Shown here: positions 11,302 through 34,551 of the stretch, in pieces | Numbering within the stretch: position 1 is the first letter of the stretch | Layout of the letters: the number at the start of each line of letters is the position of its first letter | Assembly: GCA_016786785.1 (NCBI GenBank) | Contig: JAEUVR010000407.1 | Location: 1-44,305, forward strand | Length of the DNA: 44,305 nt | Reading direction: 5' to 3' | Source of the DNA: Chitinophagaceae bacterium | GTDB taxonomy: Bacteria; Bacteroidota; Bacteroidia; Chitinophagales; Chitinophagaceae | Translations under genes and position numbers: made by a program | The notes under the pieces: generated by a model | Database searches by the model: none | What the model was told of the DNA's origin: nothing | Seen by the model: the letters and a program-made list of their open reading frames with translations, nothing else

Positions 11302-13563
11302 ATGAAAATCAGGAATCTTTTTATCACAAGCGTTTTATTGGGAATATTGATTGCCGGATGCCAAACCGGGCAGGAAAGCGAAGCCGGTATTTCTTTTGAT
11401 AAGTATAAAGTTGCCGATGGTTTCGAGATCCAATTGGCCGCTTCAGAGCCTTTGATAGTAGCGCCTGTAGCGATGGACTTTGACAATAAGGGCAGGATAT
11501 GGGCGGTGGAAATGCGCGGCTATATGCCTAACCTCGCAGGATCAGGCGAGGATGCGCCGAATGGAAGGATCAGCATCCTGGAAGACCCGGATAAAAACGG
11601 CAGAGCGCGACGCGCCAAAGTATTTTTAGACAGCCTGGTGCTCCCCAGGGCTATTGCGCACGTATACGGGGGACTGTTATATGCCGCGCCTTCTGAGCTT
11701 TGGTTTGTGGAAATAAACGATGATAAGCCGGGTAAAAGAACTCTCGTGGATTCATTGTATATAGATGGCGGAAATCCCGAAAATCAGCCAAACGGACTGA
11801 TCATGGGAATGGATAATTGGATCTATAGCGCCAACGCTACCGCGAGGTATCAACTAAGGGATGGAAAATGGATCAAGGAAGCCACTTCTTTTCGGGGCCA
11901 ATGGGGCATTACCAGGGATAATTTCGGCAGGCTGTATTATAATTATAATGAGATACAACTGGCGGGCGATTATGCGCTGCCCAATACCCTCATCAACAAT
12001 CCCTATTTAAGGCCCAAAGAAGGCATTAACAGGATATTGACGAAGGATCAACGGATCTATCCGTTGCACCCTACTACCGTAAACCGCGGGTATGTGGAAG
12101 GGATCCTTAACAAAGACAGCGTGTTAATCAACTTTACGGCAGCCTGCGGACCTTTGATCTACCGCGGCGACCAGTTCCCGGATGAATACGATCAGAATGC
12201 CTTTGTTTGCGAGCCGCAGGCAAATCTCATCAAGCGGAATATACTCAGTTTCGAAGCTTTTACGACAACGGCAACGCAGGCATGGAACGACAGGGAATTC
12301 CTTGCTTCGACAGACGAAGGCTTCCGCCCGGTGAATGCATTAAATGCTCCCGACGGCGCCATGTATGTAGTAGATATGCATCGCGGCGTGATGCAACACA
12401 GAGCGGATGAAACGCCCTATTACCGCAACGGTATAGCGCAAAAAAAACTGGACACACTGTTAAATATGGGACGTATCCTGAGAATAAAAAATAAAAATAA
12501 AAGTCTTACTCCCATCCCGGAATTCGATAAAGCTTCAGGCATTGAATTGGCGGCGTTGTTAAAAAGCAAGAACGGATGGACCAGGGATCGCGCGCAGCAA
12601 TTGTTAATTTATAAGCAGGACATGTCGGCGATACCGGCGCTGAAAGCCTTAGCGGAGGATAAGACATATCCTATGGCCGCGATACATGCCTTGCATACCC
12701 TTAACGGGTTAAAGGGGCTGTCTTTTGAATTTCTTCAGAAGATCGTAACCGACGCCAAAGATCCGATGGTAATAGCGCATGGCCTGTTGTTATTAGCGAA
12801 CGATAGCGCTAATGATAAAATAAACGACATGGCCGAGCTGGCGAATAACCTAATGAGCAGGAACGATCCGGTTATCGACCTTTACCTGGCCATCTCCCTG
12901 GGTTCATGGGCCCGTCTTTCAAAAGAACGTTTTTTACCAATACTTTCGAAATTATCAGGAATGCACGCAGGCTCCGGCGTTTTCCAGGAAGCAGTAGTAA
13001 GCAGCTTGAAAGACCTGGAAGCGGATTTCATGGCATTGACCGCTAAATCAACCGCGGCTAAAAGCCCGGATGAGCCAATAAATATATTGCTGGCAAAAAC
13101 CATAAAGAACAAACAGGAAAAAAGGATCAATTCAATTTTTACCCAAAGAAAAGTGCCCATGTATGGAAGGCAAAACGGGCTGGTCATTTATCGCAGCACC
13201 TGCTCTACCTGTCATGGACATGATGGCGAAGGGATACAGCATATAGGGCCTCCTTTGAATGGATCGGAATATGTATCCGGCCCCACGTCCAGGTTAGGGA
13301 TGATCATCCTGAACGGGTTATCAGGCCCCATTCATGTCAACGGACAGCTTTATGAATTTAATGGCGCTATGCCTGCATTTGGAAGCAATTTTTCTGATGA
13401 AGATATAGCAGGCATTATTGATTATTTGCATAATGCATTTGTCGTCGCCGACCCTAAGCTTTCCTATGGCCGTAAATCGGTAAAGCCGGAAGAAATAAAA
13501 ATTCTCAGGAATAAAACGACCGGACCGCTTTCTGAAGAAGAACTGATGAAAATAGTTGATTAA
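11302..13563 (+). CDS. PVC-type membrane-bound dehydrogenase lipoprotein with C-terminal cytochrome c
   Basis: A 753-residue lipoprotein (lipobox LLGILIAGC, Cys20). The N-terminal ~370 residues form a beta-propeller like glucose/sorbosone dehydrogenases and the 'putative membrane-bound dehydrogenase' family found in Planctomycetes and Bacteroidota (VAPVAMDFDNKGRIWAVEMR, DGAMYVVDMHRGVMQHR). A helical HEAT-like segment covers about 410-600. A monohaem cytochrome c domain follows with the haem motif C634-S-T-C637-H638 and probable axial Met690 in GAMPAFG. Electrons from sugar oxidation would pass to this haem and on to the respiratory chain. A lactonase two genes downstream would remove the lactone product. 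The substrate is unknown. The next gene starts 15 bases after the stop. Confidence 0.88.
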   Translation: MKIRNLFITSVLLGILIAGCQTGQESEAGISFDKYKVADGFEIQLAASEPLIVAPVAMDFDNKGRIWAVEMRGYMPNLAGSGEDAPNGRISILEDPDKNGRARRAKVFLDSLVLPRAIAHVYGGLLYAAPSELWFVEINDDKPGKRTLVDSLYIDGGNPENQPNGLIMGMDNWIYSANATARYQLRDGKWIKEATSFRGQWGITRDNFGRLYYNYNEIQLAGDYALPNTLINNPYLRPKEGINRILTKDQRIYPLHPTTVNRGYVEGILNKDSVLINFTAACGPLIYRGDQFPDEYDQNAFVCEPQANLIKRNILSFEAFTTTATQAWNDREFLASTDEGFRPVNALNAPDGAMYVVDMHRGVMQHRADETPYYRNGIAQKKLDTLLNMGRILRIKNKNKSLTPIPEFDKASGIELAALLKSKNGWTRDRAQQLLIYKQDMSAIPALKALAEDKTYPMAAIHALHTLNGLKGLSFEFLQKIVTDAKDPMVIAHGLLLLANDSANDKINDMAELANNLMSRNDPVIDLYLAISLGSWARLSKERFLPILSKLSGMHAGSGVFQEAVVSSLKDLEADFMALTAKSTAAKSPDEPINILLAKTIKNKQEKRINSIFTQRKVPMYGRQNGLVIYRSTCSTCHGHDGEGIQHIGPPLNGSEYVSGPTSRLGMIILNGLSGPIHVNGQLYEFNGAMPAFGSNFSDEDIAGIIDYLHNAFVVADPKLSYGRKSVKPEEIKILRNKTTGPLSEEELMKIVD

Positions 13564-16602: not shown

Positions 16603-19383
16603 CTAACCCTCTTTATCAAGAAATTGCCTGAGCACGTATTGGAGGATGCCTCCATGACGATAATATTCCACTTCAATTTTAGAATCTATCCTGGCGATGG
16701 CCTGGAATACAATCTCCCGGCCGTCGGCTTTTTTAGCCAGAACCTGTATTCTTTTTAAGGGTTTAATATCTTCCGCAATGCCTGTCAGCGTATATATTTC
16801 TTCGCCGGTAAGGCCAAGCGTTTCCGCATTCTCTCCTGGCACATATTGAAGAGGCAATACGCCCATGCCCACCAGGTTGCTCCGGTGAATGCGCTCATAA
16901 CTCTCCGCCAGCACAGCCTTAATGCCCAGCAAGAAAGCGCCCTTCGCCGCCCAGTCGCGTGAAGATCCGCTGCCATACTCTTTTCCCGCCAACACCAGCA
17001 AGGGCGTTTTGTTTTCCTTATACCGGACCGAAGCGTCATAAACAGAGAGTTCTTCGCCTGTAGGCAGATAACGGGTATAGCCGCCTTCTTTTGAAGCCAG
17101 CTTGTTCCTGATGCGCACATTGGCAAAGGTTCCCCTGACCATTACTTCGTCATTTCCTCTGCGGGATCCGTAGGAATTGAACGCTTCCCTGGGAACGCCC
17201 TTGCTTATTAAAAACGCCCCGGCAGGCGAGGATTCCTTAAAGGAACCTGCCGGCGAGATATGATCTGTGGTAATACTATCTCCCAACATCAGCAATACGC
17301 GCGCGCCCTTGATATCCTTAAAGGGTTCAGGCTTATCAGAAATATTGTAAAAGAAAGGCGCTTCTTTTATATACGTGGAATGCTTGTCCCAACTGTATAA
17401 TTTGTCCTCCGGGATTTCCAGGTTTCTCCATACCTCGTTACCCTCAAATATCTCCCCATAGCTCCTGGCAAAGTCCTTAGGAGAAAGCGCCTTGTTCATG
17501 ATATCAAGGATCTCTTCATCTGTCGGCCAGATATCCTTCAAAAAAACAGGCTGCTGATTGGGATCATAACTTATCGGTTCATTGATAAGATCAATATCGA
17601 CCCTGCCGGCAATGGCGTAAGCGACTACCAGCATCGGGGACATCAGGAAATTCATTCTCACCTGGGGATGTATCCTTGCTTCAAAATTCCGGTTGCCCGA
17701 CAGCGCTGAAGCGACCACAAGATCATACTCCTCCACCGCCTTTGCAATATGGGGCGGCAGCGGGCCAGAGTTGCCGATACAGGATGTACAACCATATCCT
17801 ACCACATGAAAATGCAGCGCTTCCAGGTCGTCGAGGAGATCGGCTTTTGCGAGATAATCCGTTACCACTTTTGATCCCGGGGCAAGAGAAGTTTTTACCC
17901 AGGGCTTGACGTCCACCCCGCGCTCCCGCGCTTTCCGGGCTACCAGCCCTGCGCCGATCATTACAAATGGATTGGAAGTATTGGTGCACGAAGTAATCGC
18001 CGCAATAACAATATCGCCGTCGGCCAGCATAAATTTTTCCTGTCCAACGGTCACCCATACCGTCTTTATGCCGTTCACCACCTTTTCTTCAATCTGCGTT
18101 TCGAGAGGCATTGACTGGGGCGCCGGAACAATAGGCTGGCTTCCGCCCTCGGCAGACCAGCGTTCCACCTGCTTATCGTTAGCGCTATATTTCCGCCCGT
18201 AGGTCTCGTCGAGCAGGGCGATGAATTTGTTTTTGAAGTCCTTTAACAATATCTTGTCCTGCGGCCTCTTCGGGCCGGCCACAGAAGGTTGTATAGAAGA
18301 AAGATCGAGTTCTACTATATCCGTATACTGAATGGATTCCGACCCCGTTCTCCATAACATGTTGGCTTTGCAATAATCTTCCACCAACTTAACCTTTTCT
18401 TCCGACCGGTTGCTTTTTCGCATATACTCCAGCGTTTTATCATCGATCGGAAAATAGGTAACGGTACAGCCGAACTCCGGCGACATATTGCTTATCGTTG
18501 CCCTGTCGGGAACAGAAAGGGAATCCAGGCCGGAGCCGAATACCTCCACAAATTTGCCTACTACGCCGTACTTTCTTAACAACTCGGCGATATTCAATAC
18601 CAGGTCTGTAGCGGTAGACCCCAACGGCATCTTTCCGGTAAGCTTCAGGCCGATGACCTCCGGCATGATAAAATAGATCGGTTGCCCAAGAATAGCGGCT
18701 TCCGCCTCAATGCCGCCTACGCCCCAGGCGATCACGCCGATGCCGTTGACCATAGGCGTATGACTATCGGTGCCCACCAGGGTGTCGGGAAAGACCTCTC
18801 CATGTCGTTCAATAATACCCTGCGACAGGTATTCCAGGTTTACCTGGTGACAGATGCCCATGCCGGGCGGAACCACGCTGAAATTATTAAATGATTTCTG
18901 GGCCCATTTCAGAAACTGGTAACGCTCCTGGTTCCGTTTGTACTCTTCCTCGATGTTATGATCATAGGCGTAACGCGTTCCGAAATAATCGACCTGAACG
19001 GAATGGTCGATGACCAGGTCTACCGGTATCAAAGGGTTTATTTCGTCGGGATTTTTTCCCTTCCTCGCTATTTCCGCGCGTAACGACGCAATGTCCACCA
19101 CAGCGGGCACGCCGGTGAAATCCTGCATCAATACCCTGGCGGGTTTAAAGGGAATATCTTTGTCAGACGCTTCGGGCTTCCAATGCAGTATCGTTTCAAT
19201 ATTCTCTTTGGTGATCGCAAAATCATCAAAATTCCGGATGGCATTCTCTAATAATATCCTGATGGAAAATGGCAGTTTACCAATGTCATGCCCCTGCTTT
19301 TCAAGTTCCGAAAGACTATAATAGCTAAAAGTATTTGTCTTGCTGTTCAATAACTTCTTTACCCGGTATGGATTCTTATTCAT
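16603..19383 (-). CDS. acnA: Aconitate hydratase A
   Basis: Aconitase interconverts citrate and isocitrate through cis-aconitate in the TCA cycle. The 926-residue cytosolic protein carries the [4Fe-4S] ligands Cys466 (SCTNTSNP), Cys532 and Cys535 (GCTSCIGNSG); the 66-residue spacing from first to second ligand matches Escherichia coli AcnA. Other signatures are VGTDSHTPMVNGIGV, GDSITTDHISPAGS, NSYGSRRGNDEVM and KEYGSGSSRDWAAKG in the swivelling C-terminal domain. I choose the ATG at 19383 because a GAGGAA Shine-Dalgarno-like sequence lies just upstream of it; the frame stays open 18 codons further but without such a site. It is the IRP/AcnA type rather than AcnB. It is monocistronic as far as visible. 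Confidence 0.97.
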   Translation of the reverse strand: MNKNPYRVKKLLNSKTNTFSYYSLSELEKQGHDIGKLPFSIRILLENAIRNFDDFAITKENIETILHWKPEASDKDIPFKPARVLMQDFTGVPAVVDIASLRAEIARKGKNPDEINPLIPVDLVIDHSVQVDYFGTRYAYDHNIEEEYKRNQERYQFLKWAQKSFNNFSVVPPGMGICHQVNLEYLSQGIIERHGEVFPDTLVGTDSHTPMVNGIGVIAWGVGGIEAEAAILGQPIYFIMPEVIGLKLTGKMPLGSTATDLVLNIAELLRKYGVVGKFVEVFGSGLDSLSVPDRATISNMSPEFGCTVTYFPIDDKTLEYMRKSNRSEEKVKLVEDYCKANMLWRTGSESIQYTDIVELDLSSIQPSVAGPKRPQDKILLKDFKNKFIALLDETYGRKYSANDKQVERWSAEGGSQPIVPAPQSMPLETQIEEKVVNGIKTVWVTVGQEKFMLADGDIVIAAITSCTNTSNPFVMIGAGLVARKARERGVDVKPWVKTSLAPGSKVVTDYLAKADLLDDLEALHFHVVGYGCTSCIGNSGPLPPHIAKAVEEYDLVVASALSGNRNFEARIHPQVRMNFLMSPMLVVAYAIAGRVDIDLINEPISYDPNQQPVFLKDIWPTDEEILDIMNKALSPKDFARSYGEIFEGNEVWRNLEIPEDKLYSWDKHSTYIKEAPFFYNISDKPEPFKDIKGARVLLMLGDSITTDHISPAGSFKESSPAGAFLISKGVPREAFNSYGSRRGNDEVMVRGTFANVRIRNKLASKEGGYTRYLPTGEELSVYDASVRYKENKTPLLVLAGKEYGSGSSRDWAAKGAFLLGIKAVLAESYERIHRSNLVGMGVLPLQYVPGENAETLGLTGEEIYTLTGIAEDIKPLKRIQVLAKKADGREIVFQAIARIDSKIEVEYYRHGGILQYVLRQFLDKEG

Positions 19384-19832: not shown

Positions 19833-20210
19833 TTTCATGCCGCTCATCCTCGAATGCGCGACGAACATAGGGTAACCAGCATTATCAAGACAGATTAACT
19901 TTATACTGATCATCTGCCTGCAATATTCCCGCCAGCCTCTTTTTGATTATAAGTCCGGTCAGCCTGATCGCCGATCCTGCATCGACTGTATCACTGACCA
20001 TAAAATAATCATACACCCCCTGTCTGCATCGATTGTATCCCGCCTGCGTCTTTGATCTTATAACAATCGACTTAAACCGTCGCAGACGCTTTCTCTTTTC
20101 CATGTTTCTAACGTTGTCGATAATACGAGATCTGGCGACCGGATTTTTATCCGGTATTTTTATTATATTTCTCTTGAATATTTATGATTTTTTTTGCCAA
20201 GAGGAACTCC

Positions 20211-20262
20211 CATAAAATTTTTCATTCATAAAATACACAAGGTATGAATGAAAAATTTTATG
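20211..20262. repeat. Perfect 20-bp inverted repeat
   Basis: CATAAAATTTTTCATTCATA at 20211-20230 is exactly reverse-complementary to 20243-20262, with a 12-base loop between. It would form a long A/T-rich hairpin in RNA on either strand. The tail is not a simple T-run, so it is not a classical terminator. It may be a bidirectional transcript end, a structured RNA, or the remnant of a small mobile element. No target-site duplication was recognised. Confidence 0.75.
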
Positions 20263-20465
20263 TACGTTTGATTGCATTTGTAAGTACGCCCCGGTTAATG
20301 ATCGTTTTATCGACTTTTAAGGCTGTTATGGTTGCCGATGGCGTATGCCAGGCATAAGGCATGCCTGCCGCTACTTATTCGCTATCTTCCCGATCACGAT
20401 CTGCGCTACAGTGGTCTTTGCCTGATAGCGGAATATTGTCCGTCATAATCAAACCGCTTAGCAAT

Positions 20466-27736: not shown

Positions 27737-28243
27737 TTAAAGCGAAGACTTATTTAACCAGAACTCATCCGCATAGTCATCGCGCGGCCCGGCGGGCAAT
27801 GCATCCAGCGCGTTTCCTATCCGGCTGAGTTCTTTCTCATTTAGTTTTTTCTCCAGATAAGGAAACAATTCTCTTTCTTCAAAACGAACATGGCTATCCA
27901 GTTTTTCGGCCAGGGAAGACAGTAAGCCGGTAACCTGTTCATCGTCCTCTCCGGCGCGGGAGATTATTTCTTCAAACAGCCGCCTCAGCGCGATATGTTC
28001 ATCGACGGCTCTAAGGGTCATCTCATCGGGGAAATGATCGAAAATGATCTCTTCTTCTTCGCGGAAATGAGGCTCAGCATGATGTTTCCGGAAATAGTCG
28101 GCATAGTTGATCATCCTTTCGGGCGCTATTCCTTTTTTTACGCCCTGCCTGATCTTCCAGCAAAACAATAAACTGAAATGATGTTCCCTGGAAAGCCTCA
28201 AAATATGCTCGTTTCTCCGGATAGGCGTTTTTTCCATGATCAT
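27737..28243 (-). CDS. Hemerythrin HHE-domain protein
   Basis: A 168-residue four-helix protein with HHE-type iron-binding motifs: REHHFSLLFCWK (first helix), YFRKHHAEPHFREEEEIIF (second), DEHIALRRLF (third) and DSHVRFEERELFPYLEKKL (fourth). These give the His/Glu set of a diiron site. HHE proteins bind oxygen or sense/repair nitrosative and iron stress. Two close in-frame ATG codons (28243 and 28237) are possible starts. It lies between the DUF488 and ferredoxin genes with short spacers, in the Rrf2-led run. Confidence 0.92.
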   Translation of the reverse strand: MIMEKTPIRRNEHILRLSREHHFSLLFCWKIRQGVKKGIAPERMINYADYFRKHHAEPHFREEEEIIFDHFPDEMTLRAVDEHIALRRLFEEIISRAGEDDEQVTGLLSSLAEKLDSHVRFEERELFPYLEKKLNEKELSRIGNALDALPAGPRDDYADEFWLNKSSL

Positions 28244-28278: not shown

Positions 28279-28641
28279 TTACAAAGCGCTCTTCAGCAAT
28301 TGCATCAATACTACGGCCTGGTTATGCGTTTCGTCGCGGGCGCCATACAACAGGGTTATTTTCTTATGTTTTTTCGCCAGGCCGATCAATGCTTTTGTCT
28401 TGTTTTCATCTTTCAGCTCCTCGCGGTATTTCCTGGCAAATTCTTCCCAGCGCTCAGGAAGATGATTGAACCATTTCCGTAGTTCGGCGGAGGGAGCGGC
28501 TTCTTTCAGCCAGGCGTCAATATGACCGTTCTCCTTTTTAATTCCCCGGGGCCATAACCCGTCCACCAGCGCTCTGAACCCGTCCGTTTTTTCCGGAGGA
28601 GCATAGACCCTTTTAATTTGTATGACCGGCTTAGCGCTCAT
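28279..28641 (-). CDS. DUF488-family protein
   Basis: A 120-residue cytosolic protein of the DUF488 family (YeaO-like). Signatures are IKRVYAPPE, GFRALVDGLWPRGIKKE, LKEAAPSAELRKWFNH and WEEFARKYREEL, and the end ITLLYGARDETHNQAVVL. No biochemical function is firmly established for the family. In many bacteria it neighbours hemerythrin or globin genes, as here. Spacers to both neighbours are about 30 bases, consistent with cotranscription. Confidence 0.93.
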   Translation of the reverse strand: MSAKPVIQIKRVYAPPEKTDGFRALVDGLWPRGIKKENGHIDAWLKEAAPSAELRKWFNHLPERWEEFARKYREELKDENKTKALIGLAKKHKKITLLYGARDETHNQAVVLMQLLKSAL

Positions 28642-28670: not shown

Positions 28671-29066
28671 TTATAATAGATTTTTAAACCCCTGTTTCCG
28701 GTAATGATTGATCTTCAATTCAAACATCTCCGCCATTTTATTGGCGCGCCATTTGGCTTCTTCCGCTTTTTCGCCGGTAAATAAGTCATTTACCGTGGCA
28801 TTGAACAGTTCCAGCCATTGTTGAAAATGTTCATGCGATACCGGAAGCTGCGCATGCGGCGGAAACGGGCTGCCGTAATAGGTATGCTCTCCCAGCAATA
28901 CCGTTTGCCAGAAGGTATACATTTTTTCCAGGTGCTGCGGCCATCTGTCTTGTATGCGTTCATTAAAAATAGGGGCCAGCAGCTGATCTTCTCTCACCCT
29001 GCCATAAAAATTATCCACCAGCAATTTAATATCATCAAGCGTCAGTATCTGTTTTACTTCAGTCAT
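28671..29066 (-). CDS. Group III truncated haemoglobin
   Basis: A 131-residue globin-like protein. I start at the ATG at 29066 (MTEVKQILTLDDIK), since the open frame upstream of it encodes an unlikely Trp/Cys/Tyr-rich segment overlapping the previous gene. Group III features are DIKLLVDNFYGRVRED, IFNERIQDRWPQHLEKMYTFW, GSPFPPHAQLPVSHEHFQQW with the likely proximal His in SHEHF, and WRANKMAEMFELK. Group III globins bind oxygen or NO with high affinity and are often implicated in microaerobic or nitrosative conditions. It sits directly behind the oxidase genes. Confidence 0.93.
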   Translation of the reverse strand: MTEVKQILTLDDIKLLVDNFYGRVREDQLLAPIFNERIQDRWPQHLEKMYTFWQTVLLGEHTYYGSPFPPHAQLPVSHEHFQQWLELFNATVNDLFTGEKAEEAKWRANKMAEMFELKINHYRKQGFKNLL

Positions 29067-29071
29067 ACAGA

Positions 29072-29488
29072 TTATTGATTTATGGAAATATAAGTAATAA
29101 AATAATACATTGCCCATCCCACAAAACCAATGATCAGTATCCATACCCAGGATGGAATGCTTTGAGGCGTTTCGCTGCCCTCGATCAGGAATTTTTTCTG
29201 ATCGCCCTTTCCATATGCGTTGATCATTAAAGGCAATATGCCGTCCACTACCGCATTCTCCTTAATGCCTTCTATAGCAATTGCCGGGCCGTTTCTCACT
29301 TCAAAGGGGATCATCCTTATGCCTTCCTTTCCTGTCGGATCCTTACTCACTATTTTAAGGATATGTTTACCGTCGACCATCTTACGGGTATCGAGCTCAA
29401 AATTGACGGGCGACAAAAACTCGGCGATAGGCGCGGGGGAATCGTCAAGAAAAATGAATATGACGCTTTTGTCTTGCATGTTATTCAT
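29072..29488 (-). CDS. Unknown protein with beta-rich domain and C-terminal membrane anchor
   Basis: A 138-residue protein without a signal peptide. Residues ~5-105 look like a beta-sandwich (FLDDSPAPIAEFLSPVNFEL, VDGKHILKIVSKDPTGKEG, IRMIPFEVRNGPAIAI), and one helix near the C-terminus (SWVWILIIGFVGWAMYYFIT) would anchor it. Its start overlaps the stop of the preceding small gene by eight bases; a second ATG at 29479 avoids the overlap. It follows the oxidase subunits, and an accessory or assembly role for the cbb3 oxidase is inferred from position only. I do not recognise a named family. Confidence 0.75.
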   Translation of the reverse strand: MNNMQDKSVIFIFLDDSPAPIAEFLSPVNFELDTRKMVDGKHILKIVSKDPTGKEGIRMIPFEVRNGPAIAIEGIKENAVVDGILPLMINAYGKGDQKKFLIEGSETPQSIPSWVWILIIGFVGWAMYYFITYISINQ

Positions 29489-29741
29489 TATTTAAAATAT
29501 ATCTTTTGATATGATTGTTTGATCCTTCACCGGGTCTGATCAGCCATTTTACCGAAAAAAAAAGCGTAAAAACAACAATTGCCGCCATCGTTGCGATGAT
29601 CACATAGTCCCAGTCGCTGTCCGGTCCGGTTCCATGCGTGATGCCCCTTAATAACTCAGGTTGTTGTTTTTCACAGGCGCCGCATGCCAGGGCCGCAAAA
29701 CGAAGGGCGAGCAAGCCTGCGAGCAGGAACAGTCTTTTCAT
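29481..29741 (-). CDS. Small oxidase-linked membrane protein with CxxC
   Basis: An 86-residue protein. It has an N-terminal signal-like helix (FLLAGLLALRFAALAC), a CGAC motif straight after it, an acidic loop and one membrane helix (VIIATMAAIVVFTLFFSVKW), then a basic tail. The topology could place the CGAC cysteines outside the membrane, or make the first a lipid-modified cysteine. It is one base from the cytochrome gene and overlaps the next gene by eight bases. The size recalls CcoQ/CcoS-type oxidase helpers, but no motif supports a firm name. Confidence 0.75.
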   Translation of the reverse strand: MKRLFLLAGLLALRFAALACGACEKQQPELLRGITHGTGPDSDWDYVIIATMAAIVVFTLFFSVKWLIRPGEGSNNHIKRYILNNE

Positions 29742-29742
29742 A

Positions 29743-30753
29743 TTAAGGAGATTTAAGTTTGATGATATCGATGATCTTTTGTATTTCTTCCGGCGTTACG
29801 GGTTTGGCATTGTTGCCCCAGCTTGTTTTTTCGTGGTTCATGATGGCGGCCACTTCTTCCGCGCTCAGCCCGGCATTGGTTCCTACAGCAGGCATAGGGC
29901 CAAAACCCTCTGAAGCGCGCCCATTGTATCCATTCATGATGATCTCCGCCATAATCTCAGGATTTTCGTCGAGTACGATCTTACTGCCTTTAAGCGCAGG
30001 AAAAGCGCCTTTCAGGCCCTCTCCGTTTTCCTGGTGACAGGCCTGGCAATGAGTCATATACAGCTGCGCGCCATCCGGAGAAGCATTAGCCGCGCTGTCG
30101 CCCGCCGAAGACTTTTCCTTTTTTTTGTATAAAAATTCCGGCGTTACCGACCCATCCGGTAGCTTGGTTTGTTTTAAAGACTGGAGATAAGCGACCAGAT
30201 ACAGGGCTTCGGGACGGGCAATATATTTTCCTTCTTTTCCCTGCGTATAAGATTCGGGAACGTTCACTACCTTATCCCTTTCTCCGGGTTCTTTTTTAAA
30301 GGCGAACAGCCAGGGGTAGGCCGGCATGACCGATTCTTTTACCACGATGCGCGGGTTAAAAAGATGGGTAAGGTTCCAGTCTAAGCTAGGTTGGCGTACG
30401 CCGACATTGGTCAGATCGGGCCCTGTCCGTTCAGTGCCCATCAGCGTAGCGGTATTGCGCCAGAAATCCGTACGATGGATATCGGCGTAATCTGCAGCTA
30501 TGCCAGGACGTTCGCCCCATACCTTATCCATGTCTACATTGCGCACCTGCTGAGTATGGCAGGCGACGCATCCTTCGGCAATAAATACGGCCTTGCCCTT
30601 CCTGGCATCCTCGCTCAGCGGAACGGCGCCGGGAAGCGGCGCATTGTTCCGCTGCACTTTCATTGCGGGAACGATGGCTACCAACAGGGTCAGCCCGATA
30701 AAAAATAAGGTTGCAGTCCTGAATAACTTGCGATGATTGTCAAATAATTCCAT
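29743..30753 (-). CDS. ccoO: cbb3 oxidase cytochrome c subunit: CcoO-like domain fused to a second cytochrome c domain
   Basis: A 336-residue membrane-anchored dihaem cytochrome. One N-terminal helix (residues ~13-30) is followed by a CcoO-like domain: haem motif CVACH, the CcoO-specific HTQQVRN and RTGPDLTNVG stretches, and axial Met in VMPAYPWL. After a charged linker (KKKEKSSAGDSAANASPDG) comes a second, class I cytochrome c domain with CQACHQENGEG and axial Met in GPMPAVG. In standard cbb3 oxidases CcoO carries one haem and CcoP two; here the extra domain may replace CcoP, which is not in the window. It feeds electrons to CcoN. It is separated by a single base from ccoN. Confidence 0.92.
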   Translation of the reverse strand: MELFDNHRKLFRTATLFFIGLTLLVAIVPAMKVQRNNAPLPGAVPLSEDARKGKAVFIAEGCVACHTQQVRNVDMDKVWGERPGIAADYADIHRTDFWRNTATLMGTERTGPDLTNVGVRQPSLDWNLTHLFNPRIVVKESVMPAYPWLFAFKKEPGERDKVVNVPESYTQGKEGKYIARPEALYLVAYLQSLKQTKLPDGSVTPEFLYKKKEKSSAGDSAANASPDGAQLYMTHCQACHQENGEGLKGAFPALKGSKIVLDENPEIMAEIIMNGYNGRASEGFGPMPAVGTNAGLSAEEVAAIMNHEKTSWGNNAKPVTPEEIQKIIDIIKLKSP

Positions 30754-30754
30754 G

Positions 30755-32926
30755 TCAGTGTATTTGCTCCGTAACAGTTTCTGTGCGCGTTTTTAATTTT
30801 TCCACAGCGGCTTCCCTGATATCGGCAATGCCGTTTGCAGATAACATCTTGTAAATATTATAGGCAAAAAACAAATGAGACAACCACATAAAACTTCCGC
30901 CTATTGCCCGCCAAAGCCAGTGGGGGGCCATTAATACCACGCTTTCAATAAAGGGTTTGCCTTCCATCCACATCATCCCTTTTAAGGTTCCGCCATACAT
31001 CAGGGGAATCGTATAAAACAATAAGCCAATAAGCGCCAGCCAGAAATGCGCGCCTACCGTTATCTGCGGGGCTTCCTTTCCAGTAAGCCTGGGGATCACG
31101 GCATAGATGCCCGCCCATAAGAAAAAACAGATGATACCATACATCGTCAGGTGAGAATGCGCCACGGTAAAATCGGTAAAATGCCAGATCAGGTTGGTGG
31201 AGCGGAATGCCTCGGCCGTGCCCTGCATGGAGCCGGTAAAATAAAAGATGATTCCCACGAGAAAGAAGGGCAGGGTATAGCTGCCGGCTATTTTATACCA
31301 TGCTCCGTTAAAGGTGAGCAGGAAATTGGCCGTGCCGGCAACCACAGGAATGATCATACCTGCGCTGCCCACGATTGCCACTGTTTGCAACCACCAGGGT
31401 ATGGAGCTGAATACAAAATGATGGGTGCCGATCAGGGTATAAAAAAGGATCTGCGTCCAGAAAGCCAGGATGCCCAGGCTATAAGAATAGATCGGTTTAT
31501 TCAATTGCTGGGGGAGGAAATAATATACAATGCCCAGCGTAAAGAACATAAACCACATGCCCACTCCCTGGTGCATATAGTATCCCTGGATAATGGTTTC
31601 GCCCAGCCCATCCTGCCATAGCGGCACATAGGCGGCAATGGTAATCACCAGCGCAAAGATGATAGCGGAAATCATGTACCAGTTGGATATATATATTTCC
31701 TTTGTTTTTCTCCGGGCGATGGTTTGTAAGAAGTTGATCAGGGATAGTATCATGCCAATGCCAAACAGCGCCATCACAGGCCATATATATTCGCGAAATT
31801 CGCCGCCGCCGTTATTCACTCCGGTCATGAGGAAAACAGAGCCTATAATAACAGAGGCATTGATCAGGTAAAGCGCATACCATCCGTTCCGGATACTGGC
31901 CAGCGGGGTATTGCTTACCCGCGGCACAATATAATATCCCAGTCCCAACATGCCGAGGGAAGCCCAGCCCCAGAATACGCTATTGGTATGCACCGGGCGC
32001 AGCCGGCCAAAACTCAGCCAGGAAATATGGTCGGCGTCGGGGGCGACGAACTTAATGCCGAGATATTCGCCAATACTGGAACCAAACAACAACCAAAAAG
32101 TAGCAGAGCCGATATACCAGAGGATAAGCCTGGACAGAGCAGGATCGATATTTGGCCTTTTCTGAGCGCGTTTCTTTAAGGTAACAAAGGGCAGGCCGGC
32201 GTTGGCGCTGACATTGATAAGCCCTTTCTCATCCTTCGCCTGCAGGTTGCCCGACAACTCCGTATTGCTTAAGGTAAAATCCAATGCTGCCTTACGCTTC
32301 AGCAATCCCGGCTCCAGTTCTTCTGTCGGCAGCTCGCTGATATAGTCCGCAAGCTTTTCCGCTTCTCTGAGGTTTCGTTCATTACGGTATTGCTTGATAA
32401 CGTTGACGACTTTAACAACCATCAGCAAAATGCCCGCAAGGATGGGGATAAGGATCAAAAACACGGTGATCAGCATGCCCGTCTCGCCAAAAATGTCGAT
32501 AGACCTTTTCCCGCCTGATTGCGCAAACAGGGAAGCGCCCGACAGGACTGCAAGGATCGTTAAAGCGCCCGGAAGCGCCGACGCGCTTTTTTTCTGTTCT
32601 TTTGTTTTCACAACGCCGAGGCGCCGCTTACAGGCAAGGATAGCGTCGATCTGGCGGCTATCCATGCCGCGTATATACTGTTCAAGGCGCTCTATCTCAT
32701 TTTCCTTCTGCATTTTCCGGTTGTCAAAAAGGATCTGTCTGGTTTTCAGCTGCAATAACCACACGGCGACCAGCAGGAACGATATGGCAAGGATCAGCGC
32801 CAGCATCCAGGCGGCGACAGGATGTAGACTATTGGACGATCCGCCGTCGGATTGAGCGGCGGAGGGAAGCGCAGCCAAAAAAACGATGATGGAGAATATG
32901 CCGGCGATAGATTTATTCTTACGCAT
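30755..32926 (-). CDS. ccoN: cbb3-type cytochrome c oxidase catalytic subunit with duplicated N-terminal module
   Basis: A 723-residue integral membrane protein. The start at 32926 gives a signal-like N-terminus (MRKNKSIAGIFSIIVF). Residues ~255-695 are CcoN: low-spin haem ligands His313 (RPVHTN) and His592, high-spin haem ligand His590 (AHSH), copper ligands His452, His502 and His503, and Tyr496, which sits at the exact spacing of the cross-linked Tyr251 of Pseudomonas stutzeri CcoN. It is therefore an oxygen reductase and not a nitric oxide reductase. The first ~250 residues are an extension absent from classical CcoN and contain two copies of a ~110-residue module (signal-like segment ending AQS, membrane helix, charged coil). 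It is located between rrf2 and the cytochrome subunit. Confidence 0.95.
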   Translation of the reverse strand: MRKNKSIAGIFSIIVFLAALPSAAQSDGGSSNSLHPVAAWMLALILAISFLLVAVWLLQLKTRQILFDNRKMQKENEIERLEQYIRGMDSRQIDAILACKRRLGVVKTKEQKKSASALPGALTILAVLSGASLFAQSGGKRSIDIFGETGMLITVFLILIPILAGILLMVVKVVNVIKQYRNERNLREAEKLADYISELPTEELEPGLLKRKAALDFTLSNTELSGNLQAKDEKGLINVSANAGLPFVTLKKRAQKRPNIDPALSRLILWYIGSATFWLLFGSSIGEYLGIKFVAPDADHISWLSFGRLRPVHTNSVFWGWASLGMLGLGYYIVPRVSNTPLASIRNGWYALYLINASVIIGSVFLMTGVNNGGGEFREYIWPVMALFGIGMILSLINFLQTIARRKTKEIYISNWYMISAIIFALVITIAAYVPLWQDGLGETIIQGYYMHQGVGMWFMFFTLGIVYYFLPQQLNKPIYSYSLGILAFWTQILFYTLIGTHHFVFSSIPWWLQTVAIVGSAGMIIPVVAGTANFLLTFNGAWYKIAGSYTLPFFLVGIIFYFTGSMQGTAEAFRSTNLIWHFTDFTVAHSHLTMYGIICFFLWAGIYAVIPRLTGKEAPQITVGAHFWLALIGLLFYTIPLMYGGTLKGMMWMEGKPFIESVVLMAPHWLWRAIGGSFMWLSHLFFAYNIYKMLSANGIADIREAAVEKLKTRTETVTEQIH

Positions 32927-32976
32927 GTCAATAAAATATATTAATACCTTTTTGTCCTTTTGTAAATCAAAAAAAA

Positions 32977-33411
32977 TCAATTCCATTTCAGGAATGCCAG
33001 GTTGTTTTCGAGGCGCTCGGGGAATTCGCTTAACCTGGCTTTCTGCAACATATCAAATATATTCTTCCGCAGCTTTTTGAACTCATGATGAATAGGGCAG
33101 GGCCTGGATTCAGAACATTGGTTCAATCCCAGCCCGCAACCGGAGAAGAGCTTATCGCCATCTATCGCCCTCACAATATCCGCAATGCTGCATTTCATTA
33201 ATTGCTTATCCAGGTAAAATCCTCCATGGCGTCCTTTAGCGGATTGAAGCAAGCCTCTCCGGGTCAGATCCTGCAATATCTTAGCAATAAAAAACTCTGG
33301 GGAATCAATTCCCCTCGCTATTTCTTTTATGCTGGTCTTATGCCCGTTCTTTGACTGCTGCGCAATAAAGATCATTGCCCGGATCGCATATTCACAGGTT
33401 TTTGAAAACAT
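32977..33411 (-). CDS. Rrf2-family Fe-S transcriptional regulator (NsrR/IscR-like)
   Basis: A 144-residue winged-helix regulator, first gene of the oxidase run. It starts MFSKTCEYAIRAMIFIAQQS, has the recognition segment SPEFFIAKILQDLTRRGLL and the wing KGRHGGFYLD. Three cysteines in the effector loop, Cys92, Cys99 and Cys105 (SGCGLGLNQCSESRPC), match the cluster-ligand positions of NsrR/IscR proteins (93, 99 and 105 in Streptomyces coelicolor NsrR). This suggests an Fe-S cluster sensitive to NO, oxygen or redox state. A double palindrome (33445-33480) lies over its own promoter, consistent with autoregulation and control of the downstream genes. Confidence 0.93.
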   Translation of the reverse strand: MFSKTCEYAIRAMIFIAQQSKNGHKTSIKEIARGIDSPEFFIAKILQDLTRRGLLQSAKGRHGGFYLDKQLMKCSIADIVRAIDGDKLFSGCGLGLNQCSESRPCPIHHEFKKLRKNIFDMLQKARLSEFPERLENNLAFLKWN

Positions 33412-33428
33412 CGTTTCTTTTGATGCTG

Positions 33429-33436
33429 CAAAGATA
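33429..33436 (-). promoter_or_regulatory. -7 promoter box of the rrf2 run
   Basis: Reading the minus strand, TATCTTTG matches the Bacteroidota -7 consensus TAnnTTTG exactly and lies 18-25 bases before the rrf2 ATG. This implies a very short leader of about a dozen bases. The -33 position falls in the adjacent palindrome. Confidence 0.6.
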
Positions 33437-33444
33437 AATACAAA

Positions 33445-33480
33445 TATCTTTTAAAAGACTATTTTGTCTTTTAAAAGATA
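33445..33480 (-). promoter_or_regulatory. Double palindromic operator upstream of rrf2
   Basis: Arms at 33445-33459 (TATCTTTTAAAAGAC) and 33466-33480 are perfect reverse complements with a 6-base centre. Each arm also contains the 12-base palindrome TCTTTTAAAAGA. So there are two identical dyad sites 21 bases apart (two helical turns), suited to two regulator dimers. The proximal site covers the expected -33 region of the promoter whose -7 box is at 33429-33436. Binding would block transcription of rrf2 and the oxidase run. Confidence 0.8.
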
Positions 33481-33545
33481 AGGGCAATATTTCCTGTAAC
33501 CGGAACCCTTTAAACATATCGGGGAGGCGCGCATATTGCTGATAC

Positions 33546-33690
33546 TGGGAGATAATCCTGAAGTTTGAAGCAATCCACTTTCGAGCATCCACCCGCAAAC
33601 GACGCTGAGAAATAGCTGATGCCGAGGTTTGAAACAATCCACGTTCGAACGTCCACCGGCAAACCGACGCCGGGAGATAGTTAATCCTGA
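33546..33690. repeat. Imperfect tandem repeat, about 2.3 units of 60-65 bases
   Basis: Unit A (33546-33605), unit B (33606-33670) and the beginning of a third (from 33671) share the order GGGAGATA, ATCCTGAAG, TTTGAAGCAATCCAC, TTCGA, CATCCACC, GCAAAC and GACGC with scattered changes. The repeats fill the intergenic stretch between the rrf2 promoter and the LytTR gene (33412-33855), which otherwise holds no supported gene. Translations on the minus strand also repeat, but no family is recognised. They may be degenerate protein repeats or a non-coding minisatellite. Confidence 0.65.
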
Positions 33691-33855
33691 AGCCAGACAG
33701 GGATACGCTAAACGAAGCGGCCGGAGGAAGCAGGCTATTCAGACCTTGAGCATCCCGGCAAGCCCTGCATAGCAGGATAATACTCACCGAGGGAGAAGTA
33801 CAAAAAATAAGGCGACGGATAAAACAGAATTGCAGACCTTTAGCGGAAAATTTCT

Positions 33856-34551
33856 ATGAACTGCCTGATCATAGACGATAACAAGATTGCCCGGTCCATC
33901 TTAAAACAATTGGTAGCCCAGCGCCCCGGATTGGACTTGCTGGGCGAATGCGAGAACGCCGCCGATGCCTACAAAAAGATCGTCGAAGGGCCTGTCGACC
34001 TGCTGCTTTTGGATATTGAAATGCCGGGCATGACAGGGCTGGAGCTCGCCCGGAACGTAGGGTCTCAAAACCCGTTCATCATTTTTACCACTGCAAAAAA
34101 GGATTATGCCGCAGAAGCTTTTGACCTGAACGTAGTCGATTATTTGGTAAAACCCATCGCGCCCGCCCGTTTTTTCCAGGCTATTCAAAAAGTTGAAGAG
34201 ATGATCGGCAGCCGGGAACAGCGCATACAGGTGGAACAGGACGACTTTATATTTATCCGCGACGCAAATATTATCCGCCGCCTTGGACTGGACGATATCC
34301 TGTATGCAGAAGCCATGGGCGACTATGTTAAACTCTATACCGCCAACAAATTCTACGCTGTTCATACCACGCTGAAATCTATAGAAGACAAGCTTCCCGC
34401 CGCAAGATTTTTACGCGTGCACCGCTCATTCATTATCCAGGTAAATAAAATTGACGCTATCCAGGATGGCGCGCTGATCATTAACGGGAAACCATTGCCC
34501 GTAGCGGACGCTTACCGAAATACGCTGAACAAACGCATGAAAATTATCTGA
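33856..34551 (+). CDS. LytTR-family response regulator
   Basis: A 231-residue two-domain regulator. The receiver domain spans residues 1-~120 with acidic pocket Asp7/Asp8, phospho-acceptor Asp53 (LLLLDIEMPGM), the switch Thr in FTTAKKDYAAEAF and Lys in DYLVKPI. The LytTR DNA-binding domain covers ~135-230 (FIFIRDANIIRRLGLDDILY, LKSIEDKLPAARFLRVHRSFIIQ, LPVADAYRNTL). Such proteins bind direct repeats as dimers. The usual partner is a LytS-type kinase, which is not present; the next kinase in the window (35121) is of the hybrid type and ends in an Hpt domain, so partnership with it is possible but unproven. Confidence 0.95.
   Translation: MNCLIIDDNKIARSILKQLVAQRPGLDLLGECENAADAYKKIVEGPVDLLLLDIEMPGMTGLELARNVGSQNPFIIFTTAKKDYAAEAFDLNVVDYLVKPIAPARFFQAIQKVEEMIGSREQRIQVEQDDFIFIRDANIIRRLGLDDILYAEAMGDYVKLYTANKFYAVHTTLKSIEDKLPAARFLRVHRSFIIQVNKIDAIQDGALIINGKPLPVADAYRNTLNKRMKII

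Follow-up and report, generated by a model that had tools for sequence, protein, structure and literature searches.

The closest described system is the NsrR regulon of proteobacteria and Gram-positive bacteria, whose targets, as listed in excerpts of Rodionov et al. (2005, PMC1274295), include hmp, norB, nirK, nnrS and dnrN. The same excerpts give the NsrR operator consensus as gATGyAT-N5-ATrCATc and describe regulons of HcpR2, a member of the CRP/FNR family, in Bacteroides, with the motif GTAACnnnnGTTAC (PMC1274295); an NsrR from Bacteroidetes is not among the proteins that these excerpts cover. Among the matches listed in a search of the open-access literature, none described, by its title and the start of its abstract, the motif reported below or an Rrf2-controlled NO regulon in Bacteroidetes.

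The window, i.e., the whole stretch of DNA that was analysed, comprises 44,305 nucleotides of contig JAEUVR010000407.1 from a Chitinophagaceae bacterium (GCA_016786785.1). It contains a gene for an Rrf2-family regulator, rrf2, with a run of genes behind it on the same strand (the 80 related loci mentioned here are defined below):

33856-34551, plus strand: LytTR response regulator, divergent, the next gene upstream of rrf2
32977-33411, minus strand: rrf2, Rrf2-family regulator with E7, C92, C99 and C105 (PF02082, TIGR00738)
30755-32986, minus strand: CcoN-like haem-copper subunit I, extended at the N terminus by about 290 residues (PF00115 at residues 287-698)
29743-30753, minus strand: FixO-like and cytochrome c subunit (PF02433, PF00034)
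29481-29741, minus strand: 86-aa protein kept in the run, with relatives in 37 of 80 loci
29072-29488, minus strand: 138-aa protein kept in the run, with relatives in 37 of 80 loci
28671-29144, minus strand: truncated globin (PF01152)
28279-28641, minus strand: DUF488 protein (PF22752, PF04343)
27737-28243, minus strand: hemerythrin-domain protein (PF01814)

The rrf2 product is placed in the Rrf2 family by two models (PF02082, 98.1 bits against a cut-off of 30; TIGR00738, 92.6 bits against 73.3), and it falls short of the NCBIfam equivalog cut-off for NsrR (44.8 bits vs. 182) as well as of the NCBIfam cut-offs for IscR (55.7 vs. 207.55) and RirA (61.3 vs. 193). In NsrR, three cysteines serve as Fe-S ligands together with an acidic residue close to the N terminus, a pattern that the sequence of the rrf2 product reproduces with E7, C92, C99 and C105; the cysteine spacings of NsrR, IscR and RirA likewise resemble it. 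All four residues are invariant in 81 of 81 Rrf2 proteins (the window's included), a figure that is inflated for E7 and C105, which are both spanned by the search peptides used to gather the 80 loci. Residue 61, in the wing, is arginine in the window protein and in locus L035 only, and proline in the other 79 of the 81.

The region upstream of rrf2 holds the following elements:

33467-33478, no strand assigned: promoter-distal 12-mer TCTTTTAAAAGA, its inner half being the distal operator half-site
33450-33475, minus strand: predicted Rrf2 operator, the 26-bp dyad TTTAAAAGA-CAAAATAG-TCTTTTAAA, conserved before rrf2 of relatives by column profile
33447-33458, no strand assigned: promoter-proximal 12-mer TCTTTTAAAAGA, its inner half being the proximal operator half-site
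33445-33480, no strand assigned: 36-bp perfect inverted repeat (15-6-15) that encloses the operator, its outermost parts particular to the source genome
33429-33436, minus strand: -7 box TATCTTTG (TAnnTTTG), exact, 16 nt past the operator's TCTTTT

The initial annotation of this DNA had pointed out two identical 12-bp palindromes, 21 bases apart, within perfect 15-bp inverted arms and next to an exact TAnnTTTG -7 box. We recovered the arms (33445-33459 and 33466-33480, with 6 nt between them), the box (33436-33429) and both exact copies of TCTTTTAAAAGA, the starts of which are, however, 20 bases apart, leaving 8 bases between the copies. The 12-mer had also been said to precede no other gene in the window, and we found no further exact copy there, one copy with a single mismatch (at 12915) and 12 matches with up to two mismatches vs. 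4.0 expected. Inverted repeats with arms of at least 15 and a loop of at most 20 were absent from 60 first-order Markov copies of the window, and for this reason we do not regard the repeat as due to chance; the window contains a second, larger repeat of this class at 20210-20261. Across the whole source genome (4.5 Mb, 464 contigs), there are four places with the 12-mer, two of them forming the repeat itself and two lying within long ORFs, vs. two places for a reversed control, so the genome-wide search that had been suggested with it proved of little use. The two 12-mers are also not independent evidence, because a dyad with self-palindromic arms yields the second from the first.

We sought the conserved unit among 80 loci with Rrf2 proteins 61-89% identical to the window's, mostly from Chitinophagaceae and Chryseobacterium but also from Pedobacter and others. 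This sample was gathered by a short-peptide search (with peptides spanning E7 and C105, not C92 and C99), and the upstream regions of the 80 relatives and the window were positioned by start codon. The loci are not independent: many of them are closely related, and one pair of upstream regions is identical. The family consensus is a dyad, AATAAAAGA-N8-TCTTTTATT, to which each of the two 12-mers contributes its inner half. Its core, AAAAGA-N8-TCTTTT, was present in the 100 nt before rrf2 in exact form in 39 of 81 regions (window included) and with at most one mismatch in 70 of 81, compared with averages of 0.005 and 0.15, respectively, in shuffled upstream regions; other spacers between 0 and 15 gave at most 1 exact and 24 near matches in the 81 regions. 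With up to two mismatches, 73 of 80 relatives (74 of 81 regions with the window) have the dyad 20-50 nt upstream of the start codon. It was not found at this place in the remaining seven (L040, L041, L051, L053, L105, L108 and L110), of which L040 and L041 have an exact dyad farther upstream, ahead of a preceding gene. The column profile of the 73 relatives reads AATAAAAGA-Y-N6-R-TCTTTTATT over 26 bp, conserved from AAT through ATT with little conservation beyond. Sites were picked by core match, and conservation of the core is thus partly built in; that of the flanking AAT and ATT, which played no part in site finding, is not.

The outer halves of the 12-mers (TCTTTT on the left, AAAAGA on the right) match at six of six positions only in the window and at no more than four of six on either side in the 73 relatives. 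Even the nearest relative, L035, a genus sibling with an 89% identical Rrf2, has the inner dyad alone. In each arm, the window site differs from the consensus by two bases (TTT for AAT, AAA for ATT), and its perfect arm of 15 exceeds the longest arm (13) among 74 aligned relatives, a comparison that used a slightly different filter from the 73 of the dyad profile. Since the inner dyad is conserved, the outer halves are not and the window has the longest arm, we assign the operator to the family and the extra symmetry to this genome. Accordingly, TCTTTTAAAAGA, which had been offered as a searchable motif for the regulator's targets, is the wrong one to search with and is to be replaced by the inner-half dyad, the outer halves being absent even in L035. 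The expectation that the motif would recur before the rrf2 run of related genomes holds for the inner dyad, kept in 73 of 80, and not for the full 12-mers.

Further support for a link between dyad and regulator comes from a second sample gathered without peptide seeds, consisting of the 29 best Rrf2 loci from whole genomes, window excluded. The dyad (at most two mismatches, 15-60 nt before the start codon) was present in 18 of 20 relatives of at least 51% identity and in only one of nine more distant relatives (43-50% identity), from which we conclude that it follows this Rrf2 subfamily. Eight of the 20 close loci were already in the 80-locus sample; of the other 12, 10 have the site. The two close relatives without a dyad at 15-60 nt are L020, which has one at 73 nt, and L022.

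A search for the exact 26-bp motif in 195 genomes of the family (source genome included, some coinciding with loci of the 80-locus sample) returned 25 sites in 20 genomes, vs. two sites for the reversed control. Close Rrf2 proteins (E <=1e-40) are encoded by 48 of the 195 genomes, and the motif was found in 16 of these 48 vs. 4 of the 147 others (Fisher p 4.7e-8); in all four of the latter, an Rrf2 relative of 36-48% identity lies beside the site. The exact motif is absent from the other 32 of the 48, the source genome among them, because their sites deviate by a few bases, in the source genome at the edges. From coordinates and neighbours, 22 of the 25 exact sites adjoin rrf2 or an NO-linked gene (RIC, DUF2249/DUF1858, CcoN-like or hemerythrin), while three have no NO-linked neighbour, lying before a gene with an HmuY-like Pfam match, at a contig end and by an ORF without an assigned family. 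An exact dyad at L157:3513 (G035:C290) lies 117 nt upstream of a gene whose product has HmuY-like and secretion-tail domains, reflecting either chance or a haem link.

Looser forms were searched as well. TAAAAGA-N8-TCTTTTA has two exact matches in the source genome, the operator site and one at 17348 inside an aconitase gene, and with up to two mismatches it gave 62 matches vs. 52 in the reversed control, too weak an excess for naming targets. AWTAAAAGA-N8-TCTTTTAWT with at most one mismatch gave 49 sites vs. 30 in the control across 99 genomes (the source genome included), divided into 29 vs. 9 in the 23 genomes with an Rrf2 match (E <=1e-40) and 20 vs. 21 in the other 76.

The -7 box lies 17 nt ahead of the rrf2 ATG at 33411, and an exact TAnnTTTG follows the dyad in 69 of 74 aligned sites, most commonly, as in the window, 16 nt past TCTTTT. 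In Flavobacterium psychrophilum, excerpts of PMC9723704 place the TAnnTTTG box at -12 to -5. If the start site is set on this scale, the dyad would extend from about -51 to -26 and thereby cover the -33 region upstream of rrf2, which the initial annotation had also taken the site to reach. A sigma-70 promoter scan of 33300-33900 found none. Between rrf2 and the LytTR gene, we also observed a 51-nt direct repeat (33550-33600 and 33614-33664), the copies of which are 80% identical and lie 64 nt apart; a third copy, of 14 nt, is at 33679.

The view that control acts at one site fits the window, given that the one other exact TAAAAGA-N8-TCTTTTA match of the source genome falls within the aconitase gene. 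On a different contig of this genome, however, a second NO-linked cluster has a related dyad in front of it. This contig, C333, carries DUF2249-RIC, DUF1858, an NnrS-like membrane protein, a 107-aa protein and, last, an rrf2 paralogue (43-44% identical). "NnrS-like" is our own label: a Pfam search of the protein gave no match, and a relative gives a sub-threshold COX1 match only. Before the cluster stands a perfect 26-bp palindrome, AATAAAAGTATTTAAATACTTTTATT (L172:4393-4418), which shares its AATAAAAG arms with the window-type operator. Among 11 paralogue-type clusters fetched, the region was in view in 10, and nine of these have the dyad (at most two mismatches); the tenth, L178, has by eye a shortened form. 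With a related dyad before the paralogous cluster, the genome seems to have two related codes. We tentatively propose, as a speculation that may well turn out wrong, that an undescribed NO regulon exists in Bacteroidota and is read by a pair of paralogous Rrf2 repressors, whose operators share the outer half-site AATAAAAG and are discriminated by the next bases (A-Y vs. T-A), so that one genome would run two NO clusters by near-identical codes; in the source species, the first operator would have been rebuilt into a longer symmetric site, alongside a wing substitution in the regulator (R61 for P) common to the genus sibling.

Alternative explanations of the repeat differ in what binds it, or whether anything does. 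The initial annotation took it for a composite operator over the rrf2 promoter, in which two identical palindromes, two helical turns apart, each bind one Rrf2 dimer, cooperatively. The exact 12-mers do start 20 bp apart, which is near two turns, and none of the 74 aligned relatives has a perfect symmetry as long as these 36 bp. Nevertheless, the outer halves are unconserved in all 73 profiled relatives, L035 included, whereas a two-dimer composite operator would keep both palindromes at a fixed spacing. A gapless 6-bp half-site with its mirror is also unlike the conserved 8-bp-spaced dyad, and there is no second dyad of the conserved kind, because the 8-bp-spaced partner of either outer half has, by eye, three mismatches in six bases. 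An operator is thus upheld by its conservation before the rrf2 run of relatives, while its composition from two palindromes is not. In this one genome, the bases flanking the dyad repeat its half-sites in mirror image, which gives rise to the pair of 12-bp palindromes. We consider the location and the regulator first proposed very likely right, and the composite two-dimer model very likely wrong.

A regulator other than the adjacent Rrf2 might bind the dyad, given that Rrf2 binding is predicted from sequence, that AT-rich dyads are bound by many transcription factors and that four of the 20 genomes with the exact motif have no close Rrf2. We find this unlikely, however, because the motif co-occurs with this Rrf2 and stands before its close relatives, seldom before distant ones, in each of the four exception genomes a different Rrf2 gene adjoins the site, and a matching variant of the dyad accompanies the paralogous Rrf2 cluster. 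That the repeat acts as a hairpin, terminator or RNA element is hardly credible. A terminator scan flags a minus-strand 15-pair stem followed by TTTGTATTTA, a single hit vs. a mean of 0.7 in shuffles. Yet the repeat lies upstream of the TAnnTTTG box, so that the rrf2 transcript would not contain it, and the next gene upstream is divergent; on position, we rejected the terminator or hairpin reading. In addition, the arms keep the same bases among relatives while the perfectly paired length varies widely, and there is no Rfam match within the window.

In the window, the CcoN-like subunit is 743 aa long and matched five solved chains, all of cytochrome c oxidases and, where titled so, cbb3-type CcoN; its approximately 290 extra N-terminal residues have no Pfam family match. 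Six histidines, which we take to be metal ligands, and a tyrosine six residues before the HH pair are present in 39 of 39 aligned sequences (window included). The tyrosine is as in cbb3 oxidases, and because it is kept we do not call this subunit an NO reductase; the main target is accordingly not a proven NO reductase. Relatives of the CcoN-like subunit occur in 42 of the 80 loci and the FixO-cytochrome c fusion in 40.

The first gene behind rrf2 in the 80 loci is CcoN-like in 37, globin in 8, DUF2249-RIC, NirK and a 150-aa protein in 7 each, RIC in 4, and hemerythrin, quinol NO reductase and an unmatched 108-aa ORF in 1 each, with no gene within 350 nt in 7; these classes are descriptive only, the reference families having been chosen from the same loci. 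Copper nitrite reductase NirK stands behind rrf2 in other species. Also found beside the motif or behind rrf2 elsewhere are a quinol-type NO reductase, the iron-sulfur repair protein RIC, an NO-inducible flavohaemoprotein, globin, a hemerythrin-PAS protein and DUF2249/DUF1858 proteins. Besides rrf2, the genes that have the motif in front of them include, in some species, those for an oxidase, RIC, a hemerythrin or a globin. In genomic terms, the presence of RIC, NirK, quinol NO reductase, flavohaemoprotein and globin genes corresponds to an NO-detoxification regulon of the NsrR type. One contig filed as Azovibrio restrictus (L036) encodes an Rrf2 73% identical to the window's, together with the dyad and a CcoN-like gene, and may be a misbinned Bacteroidota contig.

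A separate observation concerns window positions 20200-20272, an element of about 70 nt with a 20-bp perfect inverted repeat and a TACGTTTG box. Searched in 59 genomes (at most three mismatches in 28 bases), it occurs seven times in the source genome, 10 times in a genus sibling and twice each in two others, and not at all in the reversed control. In 15 of 15 viewed loci, an ORF of at least 60 aa starts within 300 nt of it, and the proteins look unrelated. A similar element precedes rrf2 in L040, which is without the Rrf2 dyad there. The element looks like a dispersed, possibly mobile promoter.

Comparison among genomes thus provides the dyad's conservation, its position, its link to the regulator and its link to NO-linked genes. 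On this basis, we read the feature as the operator of the adjacent Fe-S, NO-sensing Rrf2 repressor, with one dimer on one 26-bp dyad, and give this reading a probability of about 0.8; here we infer binding, repression, the number of dimers, the cluster and the NO signal. One Rrf2 dimer would bind the dyad (half-site AATAAAAGA, 8-bp centre) over the -33 region and would repress its own gene and the run behind it, i.e., the CcoN-like oxidase, cytochrome, globin, DUF488 and hemerythrin genes. NO would most likely attack an Fe-S cluster held by E7, C92, C99 and C105, releasing the protein and inducing the run.

The dyad replaces a misleading 12-mer and provides a means of mapping probable NO regulons in Chitinophagaceae, Chryseobacterium, Pedobacter and others, while paralogous regulators with close but distinct operators would offer a clean system for studying site choice in the Rrf2 family. 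The case also cautions against counting binding units from the symmetry of one genome, which can make them appear more numerous than they are.

Compared with the systems described to date, this one has in common with HcpR2 the control of nitrogen-oxide linked genes in Bacteroidetes, but the two differ in protein family and in motif. With IscR and RirA, the rrf2 product shares the fold and a three-cysteine pattern near residues 92-105; it scores far below both model cut-offs, however, and its identified neighbours are NO-linked and respiratory. The likeness to NsrR is broader, extending to an Rrf2-family regulator, a palindromic operator and NO-linked target genes. The operators nonetheless differ, being gATGyAT-N5-ATrCATc in NsrR and AATAAAAGA-N8-TCTTTTATT, with an even-length centre, here; none of the 81 upstream regions (200 nt) comes closer to the proteobacterial and Gram-positive NsrR consensus than three mismatches in its 14 specified bases. 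We therefore read this regulator as one that, although not filed as NsrR, works like NsrR through a motif of its own, with NO as its presumed signal.
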